Notes under the pieces: generated by a model
Told to the model about the DNA's origin: nothing
The model's database searches: none
The model's input: only the letters and a program-made list of their open reading frames with translations
Program-made: the position numbers and the translations under genes
Assembly: GCA_028711445.1 (NCBI GenBank)
Contig: JAQTSD010000014.1
Coordinates: forward strand, 1 to 34,486
Reading direction: 5' to 3'
Origin: Candidatus Peribacteraceae bacterium
GTDB lineage: Bacteria; Patescibacteriota; Gracilibacteria; Peribacterales; Peribacteraceae
DNA: 34,486 nucleotides
In this document: positions 2,918 through 27,954 of the stretch, one piece after another
Numbering within the stretch: position 1 is the stretch's first letter
How the letters are laid out: each line of letters starts with the position of its first letter

Positions 2918-3316
2918 TTAGAGGACGGATTTGACGTGCTTCACGATTGCAGAAATGGGGGTATTGGATTTCACGTAGTAGCCTTTTGCTCCGAGATTCT
3001 TCGCACGCGCCTGGTCTTCCTCTTGTCCAAGATTAGTGAGAACTATGACAGGTACTTTTGCTTTCCCGGCCTGCATCGCCTCGAGAAAAGCAAAGCCATC
3101 CATCCCCGGCATGATGAGATCCAAGAGAATAACATCGAATTTTTCTTTCTTGGCCATCTCCAGAGCTTCGCCGCCGTCCGTCGCAATATGCGGCAGAAAT
3201 CCTTCATGGGCGAACTTCAGCTCCAATGCGTGTGCGAGCGGTCGTTCATCCTCAACGATGAGCAGTGAGTGTTTTGTAGAATCGGCCGATTTTTTGGGTG
3301 TGGGTTTATCGGACAT
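2918..3316 (-). CDS. Stand-alone response-regulator receiver (CheY-like) upstream of pilB
   Basis: A single receiver domain of about 132 aa with no output domain. The acidic pocket is VEDE near the N-terminus, the phospho-acceptor Asp lies in LLDLIMPGMDG, the conserved Thr is in VIVLTNLG, and the conserved Lys is in GYYVKSNTP. All catalytic residues are therefore present, and it should be a working phosphorylation switch acting through protein contacts. The track ORF begins 19 codons earlier (MTHCLNADFLL...). I prefer the ATG at 3316 (MSDKPTPKKSAD) because the extension runs back toward a good promoter whose expected start site lies inside it. It is first in an apparent operon with pilB and pilC, so a role in controlling pilus activity is a reasonable inference. 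No histidine kinase is seen in the window. Confidence 0.88.
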   Translation of the reverse strand: MSDKPTPKKSADSTKHSLLIVEDERPLAHALELKFAHEGFLPHIATDGGEALEMAKKEKFDVILLDLIMPGMDGFAFLEAMQAGKAKVPVIVLTNLGQEEDQARAKNLGAKGYYVKSNTPISAIVKHVKSVL

Positions 3317-21803: not shown

Positions 21804-23105
21804 ATGAAGACGCTGCTGCTTCTTGCCGGCCGATCCAAGCGCTTCTGGCCCCTTGCCGAGAAGACGCTCTTCCCTGTCTGTGGAACAAATCTCCTCGCCG
21901 TACAAATCGAACGACTGCGACGCGCAGGATGCACAGACATTATCCTTGTTGGAGGATCTCACAATCTGCCACAGGCCTCTGCCCTCTTCCCATCCCTGCC
22001 AACCATTGAACAGGAAGATTTGGACTTGGGAATGCGTGGTGCGCTTTTGAGCGCTCTTCCACATTGCGACAGAGAGCCCGTTCTTATTGTTTGTGGTAAT
22101 GATATCGTCGATGCTTCTGCGTACGAGCGACTCCTTACATCCTCCCGAGAAAAAGGAGTAGCAGGATGCCTGCTTGCCCAACGACGAGAGCGCTACTTCC
22201 CTGGTGGTTATCTCCGAACCAAAGAAAACCGCATCCTCTCTATTGTGGAGAAGCCCGGTGAAGGCAAGGAGCCCGGTAATCTTGTAAATATCGTGGTTCA
22301 TATACATAACGATGCTTCGCTTCTTCTTTCCGCCCTGCAAACCGTCCACACCAAAAATGATGATGGTTATGAGCAAGCACTCGCCAATTTGTTCCCCGCT
22401 TATGAGTATCGAGTGGTGGTCTATGAGGGGGTATGGACGGCTGTGAAGTTTCCATGGCATCTGCTGGCATTTAAAGATCTTCTCCTTGCAGGAATCCGCC
22501 AACCACAAATTCATCCCGGCGCACAGATCCATACGACAGCAGTAGTGGAAGGTCCTGTCATCCTTGAGGAGGGGGTACGTATTTTCCCACACGCCACAGT
22601 TCGTGGCCCTTGTGTCATCGGAAAGGGGACTATCGTCGGCAATAACACCCTCATCCGGGACGCGAGTATCGGCGACCACTGTGTGATCGGTTTCTCCAGT
22701 GAAGTGAAGTCGAGTGTTTTAGGACATCATGTCTGGACACACATGTCCTTCGTCGGAGACAGTGTGATCGGCAACAATGTTTCTTTTGGAGGAGGCTGTA
22801 TGACTGGCAATCTCCGGCTTGATGAAGGAGAAATTTTTTCTGCAGTTCATGAGACGCCGGAGAGAACCGGCCTCACGAAGTTTGGAACGGTAATCGGTAA
22901 TGATTGCCGTCTTGGTATTTCTGTTCACATCAATCCTGGCGTGAAGGTTGGTGGTGGAACTTTTGTAACGGGACATCTCTTGCTTACGCAGGATATTCCC
23001 GATCATAGTTACGTCACCTTGAAGGATGGCACGCTCGTTGTTACGGAGAACCGTATCCGCCCTCCGGAATCCTCCGCTCGCGAGGGAGCACACAAGAAAT
23101 TGTGA
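21804..23105 (+). CDS. GlmU-like sugar-phosphate nucleotidylyltransferase with left-handed beta-helix domain
   Basis: A 433-aa two-domain protein. Residues 1-235 are a nucleotidyltransferase (KTLLLLAGRSKRFWPLAEKTLFPVCG, VLIVCGNDIVD, SIVEKPGEG, GYEQALANLF). Residues 236-420 are a left-handed beta-helix of hexapeptide repeats (IHPGAQIHTTAVVEGPVILEEGVRIFPHATVRGPCVIGKGTIVGNN...). This is the layout of GlmU and related dTDP-/UDP-sugar enzymes, which activate sugar phosphates and may also acetylate them. The signature loop is unusual: the family reads AxGxGTRxxPLT...PK, while here it is LAGRSKRFWPLAEKTLFPV, with the first glycine pair reduced and the PK lysine displaced, so substrate or activity may differ. 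It lies just upstream of oriC and near a flippase, suggesting an envelope-glycan role. Confidence 0.85.
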   Translation: MKTLLLLAGRSKRFWPLAEKTLFPVCGTNLLAVQIERLRRAGCTDIILVGGSHNLPQASALFPSLPTIEQEDLDLGMRGALLSALPHCDREPVLIVCGNDIVDASAYERLLTSSREKGVAGCLLAQRRERYFPGGYLRTKENRILSIVEKPGEGKEPGNLVNIVVHIHNDASLLLSALQTVHTKNDDGYEQALANLFPAYEYRVVVYEGVWTAVKFPWHLLAFKDLLLAGIRQPQIHPGAQIHTTAVVEGPVILEEGVRIFPHATVRGPCVIGKGTIVGNNTLIRDASIGDHCVIGFSSEVKSSVLGHHVWTHMSFVGDSVIGNNVSFGGGCMTGNLRLDEGEIFSAVHETPERTGLTKFGTVIGNDCRLGISVHINPGVKVGGGTFVTGHLLLTQDIPDHSYVTLKDGTLVVTENRIRPPESSAREGAHKKL

Positions 23106-23133
23106 TTTTTGGCTTGTAGAAGCTTTGGGGGGA

Positions 23134-23384
23134 TTATCCACACTTGTGTGGAAAAGGAGATGAAGGAGAAGGCCCCATCCCTGCAGTTCTTCTCCACAGG
23201 TCTTGTAGCATTTGGCTTCATGAAGCCAAAATAAAACATTTCCCTCTCTGAAGCCCCTGCACGTCATGTTATCCACGAGTTTTCCACATCCCCCACACAC
23301 AAAAAAAGTGAACGAGGTTCCTTTGGTCTCTCCTCAAGAAGCAAAAATGTTAAATCTCACAAGAGTTACCATTGTCTTTCCACA
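23134..23384. other. oriC: Probable chromosomal replication origin (oriC) with DnaA boxes
   Basis: The 364-nt gap before dnaN holds six sites like the DnaA box TTWTNCACA. Perfect: TTATCCACA (23134-23142, plus), TTTTCCACA (23147-23155, minus strand, read TGTGGAAAA on plus) and TTTTCCACA (23280-23288, plus). One mismatch: TTATCCACG (23269-23277), TTCTCCACA (23190-23198) and CTTTCCACA (23376-23384). The first two form an inverted pair 4 nt apart; those at 23269 and 23280 are tandem, 11 bp apart, i.e. one helical turn. AT-rich stretches lie at 23226-23242 and 23346-23356 and could unwind. The location next to dnaN is typical of bacterial origins, although dnaA is not the upstream neighbour here. 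Open ORFs in the track across this interval have no support. Confidence 0.8.
23211..23230. repeat. 20-bp perfect palindrome inside oriC
   Basis: TTTGGCTTCATGAAGCCAAA reads the same on both strands with no central gap. It sits between two groups of DnaA boxes. A degenerate copy (TTTGGCTTGTAGAAGC) lies at about 23109-23124. Probably a binding site for a dimeric protein or a cruciform element. Confidence 0.9.
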
Positions 23385-23469
23385 GAGCACACTGGATAAT
23401 CTCCTCCTTGGGAAGATACTACTTTGATGACGGATTGTTTATACTCCTTCTAACTACCTTATCATTACC

Positions 23470-24633
23470 ATGAAATTTTCCTGCAAAACCTCCGAACTTC
23501 TTCAGGCGCTTCAGCTTGTAAATAGAGCAATTGGAGGACAGCAAACACTTCCTATTCTGAATAATGTTCTTGTAGAGGTGGAGGGGAAGCGATGTGTCAT
23601 CAGTGCAACAGACTTGGAATTAAGTATTGTTACTAGTTTCGAGGCAAATATTGAAAATGAGGGAGCGATCACCGTGCCCGCAAAAGCCATCCTCAACTTT
23701 GCTCAATATAACTCTGATGCAGAGGTTCTTCTGGAGACGAGTGGGGGAAATCAATTAAAATGCACCTCTACTCATGCCAAAACCCTCATTGCCGGCGAAT
23801 CGGCAACCGAGTATCCAACCATCACTCCTATCGAAAACGAGGAAACTTTCACTATTGGTGCAGAACCGCTTTTGGATGCGCTTCATATGGTAACCTTCGC
23901 TTCTGCAAAATCCACTCTGCGACCGGTTCTCTCCGGTGTCTATCTCCGGGCTGAAAAGGGAAATCTCATCTTTGTCTCCACCGATAGTTATCGCCTCTCG
24001 GAGTATAAAGTTCCTCTTTCCACAGGTAAGGCGGATCTCTCCTGCATCATCCCCGCAAAGGTTCTCGAGGAATTGAAGGCTGTTTTGGGAAGCAAAAAAG
24101 GAGAGGAATCAAAGAAGGAAAAGGAGGAGAAGAAAGGGAAAGACCACCAAACAGCAGCAACAATTGAAATTGCCCTCAGCAATCAACAGATCGAACTACG
24201 AACCGGTCGCACGCGCCTCCTTTCCCGCCTTATTGATGGCAAGTTCCCGGACTATCAGCAGATCATCCCAAAAGAAGCAAAAACAAAGGTGACAGTTCCG
24301 GTGCGAGAATTGCTCACTGTCATCCGTCGTATGCATTACTTCGCAAAGGAGATTAATAACAATATCACCTTCCACTTTTCCAATGGCAAAATGCACATGA
24401 CTACACCTCAGACACAGATGGGTAAAGATGAAGCAACACTTGAGGTGTCACAGAGTGGCAAGGAGAATAAAATTGCATTGAGCTCCTCGTATCTTCTCGA
24501 TTTTCTTAATCATATGGAGAACGAAGAGGTGGAGATACAGATCACTGATAGTATGCACCCCGCAGTCTGTCGGCTGCCCGGTAAAGAATTTCTCCTTCAT
24601 CTCATCATGCCGCTACGACTACAGGAAGAATAA
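23470..24633 (+). CDS. dnaN: DNA polymerase III beta sliding clamp DnaN
   Basis: The 387-aa clamp that tethers the replicative polymerase. The N-terminus KFSCKTSELLQALQLVNRAIGGQQTLPILNNVLVEVEG is diagnostic, followed by ISATDLELSI, then domain 2 (VTFASAKSTLRPVLSGVYLRAE, FVSTDSYRLSEYK) and domain 3 (LIDGKFPDYQQIIPKEAKTKVTVP). It ends HLIMPLRLQEE, the conserved C-terminus forming part of the protein-binding pocket. A Lys/Glu-rich insert (SKKGEESKKEKEEKKGKD, about 208-225) interrupts the end of domain 2 and is not typical; it is probably a surface loop. TATACT at 23440-23445 is a likely -10, with no good -35. It directly follows the predicted oriC. Confidence 0.97.
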   Translation: MKFSCKTSELLQALQLVNRAIGGQQTLPILNNVLVEVEGKRCVISATDLELSIVTSFEANIENEGAITVPAKAILNFAQYNSDAEVLLETSGGNQLKCTSTHAKTLIAGESATEYPTITPIENEETFTIGAEPLLDALHMVTFASAKSTLRPVLSGVYLRAEKGNLIFVSTDSYRLSEYKVPLSTGKADLSCIIPAKVLEELKAVLGSKKGEESKKEKEEKKGKDHQTAATIEIALSNQQIELRTGRTRLLSRLIDGKFPDYQQIIPKEAKTKVTVPVRELLTVIRRMHYFAKEINNNITFHFSNGKMHMTTPQTQMGKDEATLEVSQSGKENKIALSSSYLLDFLNHMENEEVEIQITDSMHPAVCRLPGKEFLLHLIMPLRLQEE

Positions 24634-24783: not shown

Positions 24784-27700
24784 ATGCAATCTTCTCTCCT
24801 CCTTGGGAGTGAGACACATCGGGATCTCGCACACCTTTTGAAGGCCCGTAGACGGCTGACCCTTTCAGGTGCCTCCAATGAGACTGCTAAAGCACTCCTC
24901 ATTACTTCGCTTCTCACTCACCAGCCGCACCAGTCTCTCCTTGTTACAGAGAAGGATAGCAATTGTGAAGCCCTGCGTCATTGGCTGCATTTCTTTGATC
25001 AACATGTATACATGCTCACCCCCGTTGAAAATTCTGCTGGAGAGATCTTACCGGAGGCATTACAGACATATCTTCTCTTCATGGGGCGGGCGGGGAAAGA
25101 TATTTTCCTCTGTTCACGAGAAACATGGGACCAGGATTTCCCCTCACTCAAAGAATTAAATGAACGGCGAATTCGTCTCGAGAAAGACGGGGAAATCGCC
25201 TTCACCGATCTTGTTGAATCTCTCATAGCGCTTGGGTACCAGCATGGTGCAGATCTTTACCTCCAGCCCGGAGAGTATCGTCGGACAGGAGATGTTTTCG
25301 ATATTTTCCCCATTCAATCAGATCACCCTTATCGCATTTCCCTCAATCTTGATCGCGTAGAGAAGATTCTCGCAGTTGATCGAGTCGATCTTTCAAAGAC
25401 GCACGACGCGGGTCAGGAGCTTTTCATCTTTCCTGTGCTCTATGAAAAGATGCTTCCCCTCAACGAACAACTACCGGACGAAGCCCTTCTGATTCTGGAT
25501 GATCAAGACGATATCTCCCCGCCACTCAAGACGGCACTCCTGCGGTTTACGCCATTCCCTACGGGCGAGGATAATCATGCACACGTACGGTACCTCTCCG
25601 TGCTGAAGTTCTACACACTTACGGATTTCCTGAATGATATTCGTGACAAGCTTCAGCAGGATTGGGCGCTCTTTGTCGTAACAAAACGTTTGGATGAGCT
25701 GAAAGGAATTTGTACCGAGGAACATATCTCCTGCAGCCTTGAGCTTAAGCTACAGAAGGGGGTTCTCACGCTCATTCATGCAGGAGAAGAAGATCTCCTC
25801 CCACACTCCCTGCAAAATCCGGATTTGAAGTTTGCCCTTTTGACCGATCGTGAAATCTTCTCACTCAAGAAGACCGGCAAACAACGTAGTATCCAAAAAC
25901 TTGCACTCGATTTCATCACATCGCTCGTTGCGGGGGATTACGTCGTACATATGGAGCATGGGATTGGCTACTTCGAGGGTATGACGCAAAAGGAAATCGA
26001 TGGAACAATGCGGGAATACCTTGAACTTACCTACGCGGAAGGCGACAAGCTCTTCATCCCCGTAGATCAGGCGGATAAATTGAGTAAGTACGTCTATGAT
26101 GAAGGGAATGAGCCACAACTCACGCGGCTCGGGACTAGTGAATGGAAGCGCATCACGGAAAAAATGCGCGAAGAGACCCGATTGATCGCCAAAGAACTTC
26201 TCGATATTTACGCTAAGCGCGCGAGTGCCAAGGGATTCGCCTTTGGACCGGATACAGATGCACAGAACGCCTTCGAGAAGGCGTTTCCCTATCAGGAGAC
26301 TCCAGGGCAAATGAAGGCAATCGAGGATCTCAAACATGATATGGAGCGAGATCATCCTATGGACCGTCTCATCTGTGGGGATGTGGGATTCGGTAAGACG
26401 GAAGTAGCCATGCGCGCCGCTTTTAAGGCGGTACAGGCAGGCAAACAGGTCGCTGTTCTCGCCCCCATTACCATTCTCGTAGATCAGCACTTCCGGACGT
26501 TTACCGAGCGCATGAAGGGCTTCCCTATACGTATCGAAATGCTCAGCAGATTCCGCACGCCTCGTCAGCAAAAAGAGGTACTCGAAAAGCTTCGTAAAGG
26601 TGAAGTGGATATCATCATCGGCACACATCGCCTACTGCAGGCGGATGTAAAATTCTTCAATCTCGGGCTTGTAGTCCTCGATGAGGAACAGCGGTTCGGT
26701 GTGAAGCAGAAAGAAAAATTCAAGGAACTACGGGCAAATGTTGATGTCCTTACACTCACTGCCACGCCCATCCCCCGTACGCTCAATCTCGGGCTCCATA
26801 AATTGCGCGACATCACTACCATCACTACCCCTCCTCCAGGGCGACTCCCGATTGTCACGGAAGTACGTAAGTACTCCGATCAACTCGTGCGGCAGGCGAT
26901 TCTGCAGGAAATCGAGCGTAAGGGGCAGATCTTTATGCTCCACAATCGCGTTGAGACCATCGATGCATTTGCCGACAAACTGCGCGAACTTGTGCCAGAG
27001 GCCACATTCATCGTCGGCCATGGGCAACTCAAGCCTGATGATCTCGAGAAACGCATTGTGGCCTTCAAGGACGGCCACTACGACGTCTTGGTGAGCTCCA
27101 CTATCGTTGAGAATGGTATCGATCTTCCACGAGCCAATACACTCATCGTGAACGGTGCAGAGAATTTTGGTCTTGCTCAGCTCTACCAGCTGCGCGGACG
27201 CGTGGGACGCAGCAAACTGCAGGCATATGCGTACTTTCTCTACCATGGGCAGAAACTCGAGGAGGATGCACGTAAGCGTCTCAAGGCCATCGTGGAGGCG
27301 TGTGAGCTGGGGAGTGGCTTCCAGGTGGCCATGCGTGACCTCGAGATCCGCGGAGCCGGTGAGATTCTCGGCGCCAATCAATCCGGCACCATGCTCACTG
27401 TCGGCGTCAGTCATTATCTGCGCATGCTGAAAAATGCAGTTGAGGAACTCAAGGCTGGAGGGAAAGGGGTAGCTGAAGAAGAATTCACCGTCGAAATTTT
27501 GCTCCCGATTCTCGCTCTCATTCCATCGTTTTACATTCCTGATGAGCAAGAGAAGATTTCTATTTATCAGAAGCTTGCAGGGAGCGAGGATGATGCGATC
27601 CTCAAAGAATTTGAGAATGATCTCATCGAAGAGTACGGAGTACTTCCGCCACAAGTGGAAAATCTCTTCAAGGTATTGCGTCTCAAACTGACGTGTCGTA

Positions 27701-27954
27701 AAGCTGGTGTGATGCGCGTGAAAGAGGAGGATGACCGCAAGGATGGTAAGGAAATTGTCATCACCTTAGTTAAAGGAGTGACAGCCAAGGAGATCATGCA
27801 ACTCCTCTCGGTGAATGGCTTGTGGCGCGTGAGCGGGTCCAATTTAAGAATCTTCGAAAAGGCACTCCTTACAGGGAAGAAAGATCTCTTGGAAGTTCTC
27901 ACGGAGGAGGTGGCACATCTCAAGAAGAAAGGAAAAAACAAAGAAGAAGAATGA
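24784..27954 (+). CDS. mfd: Transcription-repair coupling factor Mfd
   Basis: Mfd removes RNA polymerase stalled at DNA lesions and recruits UvrA. The 1056-aa product is somewhat shorter than the roughly 1150 aa of E. coli, the difference lying in the N-terminal UvrB-like part (about 1-300). The RNA-polymerase-interacting CarD-like domain starts LVAGDYVVHMEHGIGYFEGM (about 382). The helicase motor has Walker A ICGDVGFGKTEVAMRAAFK (about 529), DEEQRFGVKQKEK (about 632) and TATPIPRTLNL (about 658), and the second RecA domain has IVENGIDLPRANTLIV and QLYQLRGRVGRS. The C-terminal TRCF/UvrA-masking domain is at about 900-1020, with a basic tail. Internal start choice agrees with MQSSLLLGSETHRDL. 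The leader contains a terminator-like hairpin. Translation is open throughout with no frameshift. Confidence 0.96.
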   Translation: MQSSLLLGSETHRDLAHLLKARRRLTLSGASNETAKALLITSLLTHQPHQSLLVTEKDSNCEALRHWLHFFDQHVYMLTPVENSAGEILPEALQTYLLFMGRAGKDIFLCSRETWDQDFPSLKELNERRIRLEKDGEIAFTDLVESLIALGYQHGADLYLQPGEYRRTGDVFDIFPIQSDHPYRISLNLDRVEKILAVDRVDLSKTHDAGQELFIFPVLYEKMLPLNEQLPDEALLILDDQDDISPPLKTALLRFTPFPTGEDNHAHVRYLSVLKFYTLTDFLNDIRDKLQQDWALFVVTKRLDELKGICTEEHISCSLELKLQKGVLTLIHAGEEDLLPHSLQNPDLKFALLTDREIFSLKKTGKQRSIQKLALDFITSLVAGDYVVHMEHGIGYFEGMTQKEIDGTMREYLELTYAEGDKLFIPVDQADKLSKYVYDEGNEPQLTRLGTSEWKRITEKMREETRLIAKELLDIYAKRASAKGFAFGPDTDAQNAFEKAFPYQETPGQMKAIEDLKHDMERDHPMDRLICGDVGFGKTEVAMRAAFKAVQAGKQVAVLAPITILVDQHFRTFTERMKGFPIRIEMLSRFRTPRQQKEVLEKLRKGEVDIIIGTHRLLQADVKFFNLGLVVLDEEQRFGVKQKEKFKELRANVDVLTLTATPIPRTLNLGLHKLRDITTITTPPPGRLPIVTEVRKYSDQLVRQAILQEIERKGQIFMLHNRVETIDAFADKLRELVPEATFIVGHGQLKPDDLEKRIVAFKDGHYDVLVSSTIVENGIDLPRANTLIVNGAENFGLAQLYQLRGRVGRSKLQAYAYFLYHGQKLEEDARKRLKAIVEACELGSGFQVAMRDLEIRGAGEILGANQSGTMLTVGVSHYLRMLKNAVEELKAGGKGVAEEEFTVEILLPILALIPSFYIPDEQEKISIYQKLAGSEDDAILKEFENDLIEEYGVLPPQVENLFKVLRLKLTCRKAGVMRVKEEDDRKDGKEIVITLVKGVTAKEIMQLLSVNGLWRVSGSNLRIFEKALLTGKKDLLEVLTEEVAHLKKKGKNKEEE

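Follow-up and report, generated by a model that had tools for sequence, protein, structure and literature searches.

The window analysed here is the whole of contig C23 (34,486 bp), part of an assembly (G000) of 1,251,900 bases in 45 contigs that is 99.7% complete. It contains dnaN, identified by a match to TIGR00663 (4.9e-78), and the closest named relatives of the encoded DnaN come from Candidatus Peribacter, Peribacteraceae and Peregrinibacteria MAGs. In the classical locus the order is dnaA-oriC-dnaN, with dnaA usually flanking the origin. Here the gene upstream encodes a sugar-1-phosphate nucleotidylyltransferase/acetyltransferase, whose best model is Arch_glmU at a score under the curated cut-off of that model. 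The genes and the gap between them are as follows.

21804 to 23105, + strand: GlmU-like nucleotidylyltransferase/acetyltransferase gene, occupying the usual place of dnaA; upstream in 28 of 30 family loci.
23106 to 23469, no strand: proposed oriC, the entire 364-nt gap between the GlmU-like gene and dnaN, proposed from box enrichment, conservation in relatives and a skew turn at the orthologous locus.
23470 to 24633, + strand: dnaN, DNA polymerase III beta clamp.
24784 to 27954, + strand: mfd, transcription-repair coupling factor; downstream in 28 of 30 family loci.

DnaA boxes were defined as TTWTCCACA with at most one mismatch, and six of them were found in the gap.

23134 to 23142, + strand: TTATCCACA, perfect; position near -336 conserved.
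23147 to 23155, - strand: TTTTCCACA, perfect, facing the box at 23134; the facing pair is conserved.
23190 to 23198, + strand: TTCTCCACA, one mismatch; from the box scan and the comparison of relatives.
23269 to 23277, + strand: TTATCCACG, one mismatch, first member of a tandem pair 11 nt apart.
23280 to 23288, + strand: TTTTCCACA, perfect, second member of the tandem pair.
23376 to 23384, + strand: CTTTCCACA, one mismatch, nearest to dnaN.

This clustering is well above chance, as expected of a DnaA-dependent oriC. Against the three perfect boxes and six within one mismatch, 20,000 dinucleotide-preserving shuffles of the gap gave means of 0.017 and 0.34 and maxima of 2 and 4, respectively, so the observed counts were never reached. 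Among the stretches of 364 nt sampled from the rest of the contig, none has more than two boxes. The whole assembly contains 19 perfect boxes, three of which fall in this gap within 155 nt, and no two others lie less than 400 nt apart anywhere in it.

The first-pass annotation of this DNA had counted six box-like sites, three of them perfect, in the 364 nt before dnaN, and this count is exact, with every position confirmed. Its reading of the upstream gene as GlmU-like rather than dnaA agrees with the profile match, the sole dnaA match of the assembly being on another contig (C17). The span that it marked, 23134 to 23384, covers the box array, but the probable unwinding region described below extends on to the dnaN start.

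Conservation and GC skew at the dnaN locus

The family comparison was made with 30 dnaN loci, 29 of which were oriented for box counts. At least three boxes are present in 28 of the 29, mostly as a recognisable array. Counted from the dnaN start in window numbering, the array consists of the facing pair near -336/-323, a box near -280, the tandem pair near -201/-190 with its 11-nt step, and a last box near -94. This array, the upstream GlmU gene and the downstream Mfd gene are conserved across Peribacteraceae. The sole family locus lacking both DnaA boxes and GlmU before dnaN is that of G025 (contig C21, L045). The DNA upstream of dnaN in G025 is rich in repeats with AACCAGA-like units, through either rearrangement or misassembly.

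Because the assembly is split into contigs, GC skew was taken from relatives. On a 311-kb contig of a genome of the same genus (G001), the cumulative skew reaches its minimum at 224,169, with dnaN at 224,540-225,709 and six boxes starting at 225,795. This puts the minimum 0.4 kb away from dnaN and some 2 kb away from the boxes; the skew is -0.043 to one side of it and +0.044 to the other. In a complete genome of the family (G028), a two-segment fit of the skew gives 1,055-1,080 kb for the origin and 475-505 kb for the terminus. The orthologous box cluster of G028, at 1,075,476-1,075,834, falls inside the fitted origin interval and is the densest found in the sequence examined, about 10% of that genome being masked or outside it. 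In another complete genome (G030), the sampled skew is noisy but would fit an origin close to dnaN (9 kb), with the terminus at about 700-860 kb. The skew of the window itself turns weakly, with a minimum at 25,926, 2.5 kb beyond the boxes.

The first-pass annotation had taken this locus for the probable origin of the chromosome, naming GC skew as a check and a skew minimum elsewhere with another box cluster as the refutation. The skew turns at the orthologous locus both in the same-genus contig and in the complete family genome, and no comparable box cluster was found elsewhere in G000 or G028. Together with the conservation in relatives, these results support the assignment.

A periodic block and unstable DNA beside the boxes

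Between the last box and dnaN, two further features were recognised.

23417 to 23436, + strand: 3-nt-periodic block TACTACTTTGATGACGGATT, with the family consensus (YKA)n-WTT, DnaA-trio-like.
23417 to 23469, no strand: probable DNA unwinding element, comprising the block and the adjoining least stable DNA.

In 23 of 27 genomes the block begins 36-39 nt past the final box, and each third column of it is A in 24-27 of 29 genomes. Of all 50-nt windows in the 2.6-kb locus, the least stable one begins at 23433 here, and in 26 of 28 genomes it starts at most 20 nt from the block. Unstable A+T-rich DNA is thus found beside the boxes, where an unwinding element is expected.

In eight genomes, the distance from the block to dnaN exceeds 100 nt. 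Seven of the eight still have the unstable DNA at the block, and four (G004, G005, G013 and G021) also keep the box-to-block spacing. Both features therefore belong with the boxes and not with the gene, following the boxes where inserted DNA lengthens the distance to dnaN. Judged by this arrangement, 23417-23469 is the probable DNA unwinding element. The block was also considered as a promoter of dnaN, which is disfavoured by its position being fixed relative to the boxes and the unstable DNA, not to the gene.

In a published survey of the basal unwinding system (PMC8287927), the trio criterion is at least three trios with a central A, read 3'-NAN-5', at most 16 nt from a DnaA box. The conserved block is periodic, but its A is on the other strand from the trio rule and it lies 32-37 nt after the box. 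A run of six trios on the expected strand is found at 23435-23452, within A+T-rich DNA and 50 nt past the last listed box.

Separate dnaA and alternatives to an origin beside dnaN

Locating dnaA had been named as a further check, and it was found away from dnaN. The sole match in G000 is on contig C17 (8.7 kb), near the contig end and behind an M50 peptidase gene, so that the classical adjacency of dnaA and dnaN does not hold. Its product matches Bac_DnaA and Bac_DnaA_C, with both the ATPase and the DNA-binding domain encoded. The gene is present in a single copy, away from the origin. It is about 430-460 kb from dnaN in the single-contig G028 and G030 and in G029, and its distance to the origin is about 459 kb in G028 and about 440 kb in G030. 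In G028, dnaA lies on the steadily falling arm of the skew, 79% of the way from the origin to the skew maximum.

Upstream of the M50 peptidase-dnaA pair, G000 has TGTGGAAAACTTTTCAGTTTTCCAC, an inverted pair of DnaA boxes.

C17 (L002), about 2990 to 3014: inverted repeat of two DnaA boxes, TGTGGAWAACTTTTCAGTTWTCCAC, upstream of M50 peptidase-dnaA; found in four family genomes.

The repeat is also carried by G001 and G030, and in its G028 counterpart, TGTGGATAACTTTTCAGTTATCCAC, both arms have the same A/T change. In G029, two perfect boxes 17 nt apart occupy the same kind of place. The conservation of the repeat upstream of the pair suggests that it is a probable autoregulation site, through which DnaA would control its own operon.

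We considered that the box cluster before dnaN could serve to control dnaN in response to DnaA, or to titrate DnaA, with the true origin elsewhere. Regulated promoters also carry DnaA boxes, and the two-box inverted repeat before the dnaA operon, which is conserved in the family, is the main other repeated box site. That site is away from any skew turn, whereas in both G001 and G028 the dnaN locus is where the skew turns. No comparable cluster was found elsewhere in G000 or G028, and the block and the unstable DNA are placed relative to the boxes rather than to the dnaN start. Such a role in place of an origin is therefore very improbable.

Still less credence can be given to an origin at dnaA, as in the classical locus, with the cluster before dnaN as a relic. 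The conserved inverted pair upstream of the dnaA operon would fit it, but there are only two boxes there, and dnaA of G028 lies within its falling skew arm, not at the skew minimum. Equally hard to sustain is an assembly artefact hiding a dnaA that truly neighbours dnaN: this genome is fragmented and dnaA is close to the end of a short contig, but dnaN is within a continuous 34-kb contig with neighbours as in relatives, the two genes are far apart in G028, G029 and G030, and they are adjacent in no genome of the class.

This last count comes from a tally over genomes in which both genes were found, with cases on different contigs (82 of the 99 inside the class) scored as non-adjacent. Inside the class, 0 of 99 genomes have the two genes side by side on the same strand, compared with 107 of 122 elsewhere in the phylum. 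A contig break could account for an individual different-contig case but not for all 82, and all 17 same-contig cases are non-adjacent as well. Because the tally, same-contig cases included, divides in this way, the separation is probably ancestral to the class. The rearrangement of the dnaA-dnaN locus suggested by the first-pass annotation is thus real, but it is ancient and class-wide, not peculiar to this chromosome. A class-wide split was not found reported in the open-access literature. The departure of dnaA from the locus probably predates the divergence of families within the class, with dnaN staying at the origin; the latter is seen for Peribacteraceae only.

In other families of the class, some of the regions upstream of dnaN contain several boxes (families f4 and f16) and many contain none. 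A box-pattern scan of four complete genomes from such families, including G101 and G083, showed no clustering of perfect boxes at dnaN.

Several observations were made on other genomes. On G101:C1, a complete genome of another family of the class, perfect boxes along the entire chromosome number 29 and 4 on the two strands, while the backwards control gives 28 to 7; the strand composition of G101 seems one-sided throughout, without an evident switch between origin and terminus. In G136, G180 and G223, met in the searches of the phylum (97-99% complete, one of them a single contig), neither the dnaA nor the dnaN family was matched, which masked stretches may explain. At G125:C1:184129 the dnaN match falls in an open frame as long as 24,189 codons, for which masked N stretches are the most likely cause. 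Some members of the class have internal TGA codons in dnaN, fitting Gracilibacteria, the presumed name of the class.

Proposed initiation at the dnaN side and related systems

The 364 nt before dnaN are very probably the chromosomal oriC, of a fairly ordinary bacterial type, where a distantly encoded DnaA would open 23417-23469. In the course that we propose, DnaA made elsewhere on the chromosome would bind the array of six boxes. Acting from those nearest to dnaN, it would open the adjoining least stable stretch, 23417-23469, which starts with the periodic block. The helicase would then be loaded at the opened stretch, and two forks would depart.

A more specific proposal, which we regard as tentative and somewhat doubtful as a whole, is a variant unwinding architecture. 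In it, a fixed spacer of about 37 nt would connect the last DnaA box to the (YKA)n element, the initiator gene would have moved, early in the history of the class and permanently, to a site far along towards the terminus, and the DnaA-box inverted repeat there would serve autoregulation.

As in the classical locus, the origin abuts dnaN, but dnaA is absent and the GlmU-like gene is on the other side. In the basal unwinding system, known from Bacillus subtilis and others, a trinucleotide-periodic stretch and unstable DNA come after the boxes, and the strand carrying the boxes is directed towards that stretch (PMC8287927); both hold here. On the other hand, the spacer of about 37 nt exceeds the maximum of 16 set in the survey, and the block has its invariant A on the opposite (top) strand (PMC8287927).

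In Candidatus Peribacter riflensis, of the same family, the origin was mapped by GC skew, and DnaA-box-like short repeats are reported at that skew-defined origin, as they are here (PeerJ 2016, 4:e1607; PMC4736985). In the passage of that paper on the origin, it is described as otherwise not apparent from gene predictions, and neither dnaN nor the absence of dnaA is named (PMC4736985). In Synechococcus elongatus PCC 7942, oriC is near dnaN at the GC-skew shift point, and cyanobacterial genomes with irregular skew encode dnaA and dnaN separately (PMC7198777). Both this cyanobacterium and Peribacteraceae have the origin near dnaN and dnaA elsewhere; the phyla are unrelated, and the comparison covers location. 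The skew-mapped Peribacter origin and a dnaN-side origin in Synechococcus were thus already known; this analysis adds a precise gene anchor, the architecture conserved among relatives and the adjacency tally across the class.

For an uncultured family, the locus offers a precise and testable origin, which serves genome orientation and growth estimates from read depth. The lost neighbourhood of dnaA and dnaN marks one class of the phylum, the origin being kept with dnaN at least in Peribacteraceae. The conserved spacing between the boxes and the block makes a concrete prediction for how DnaA of Peribacteraceae would open DNA.
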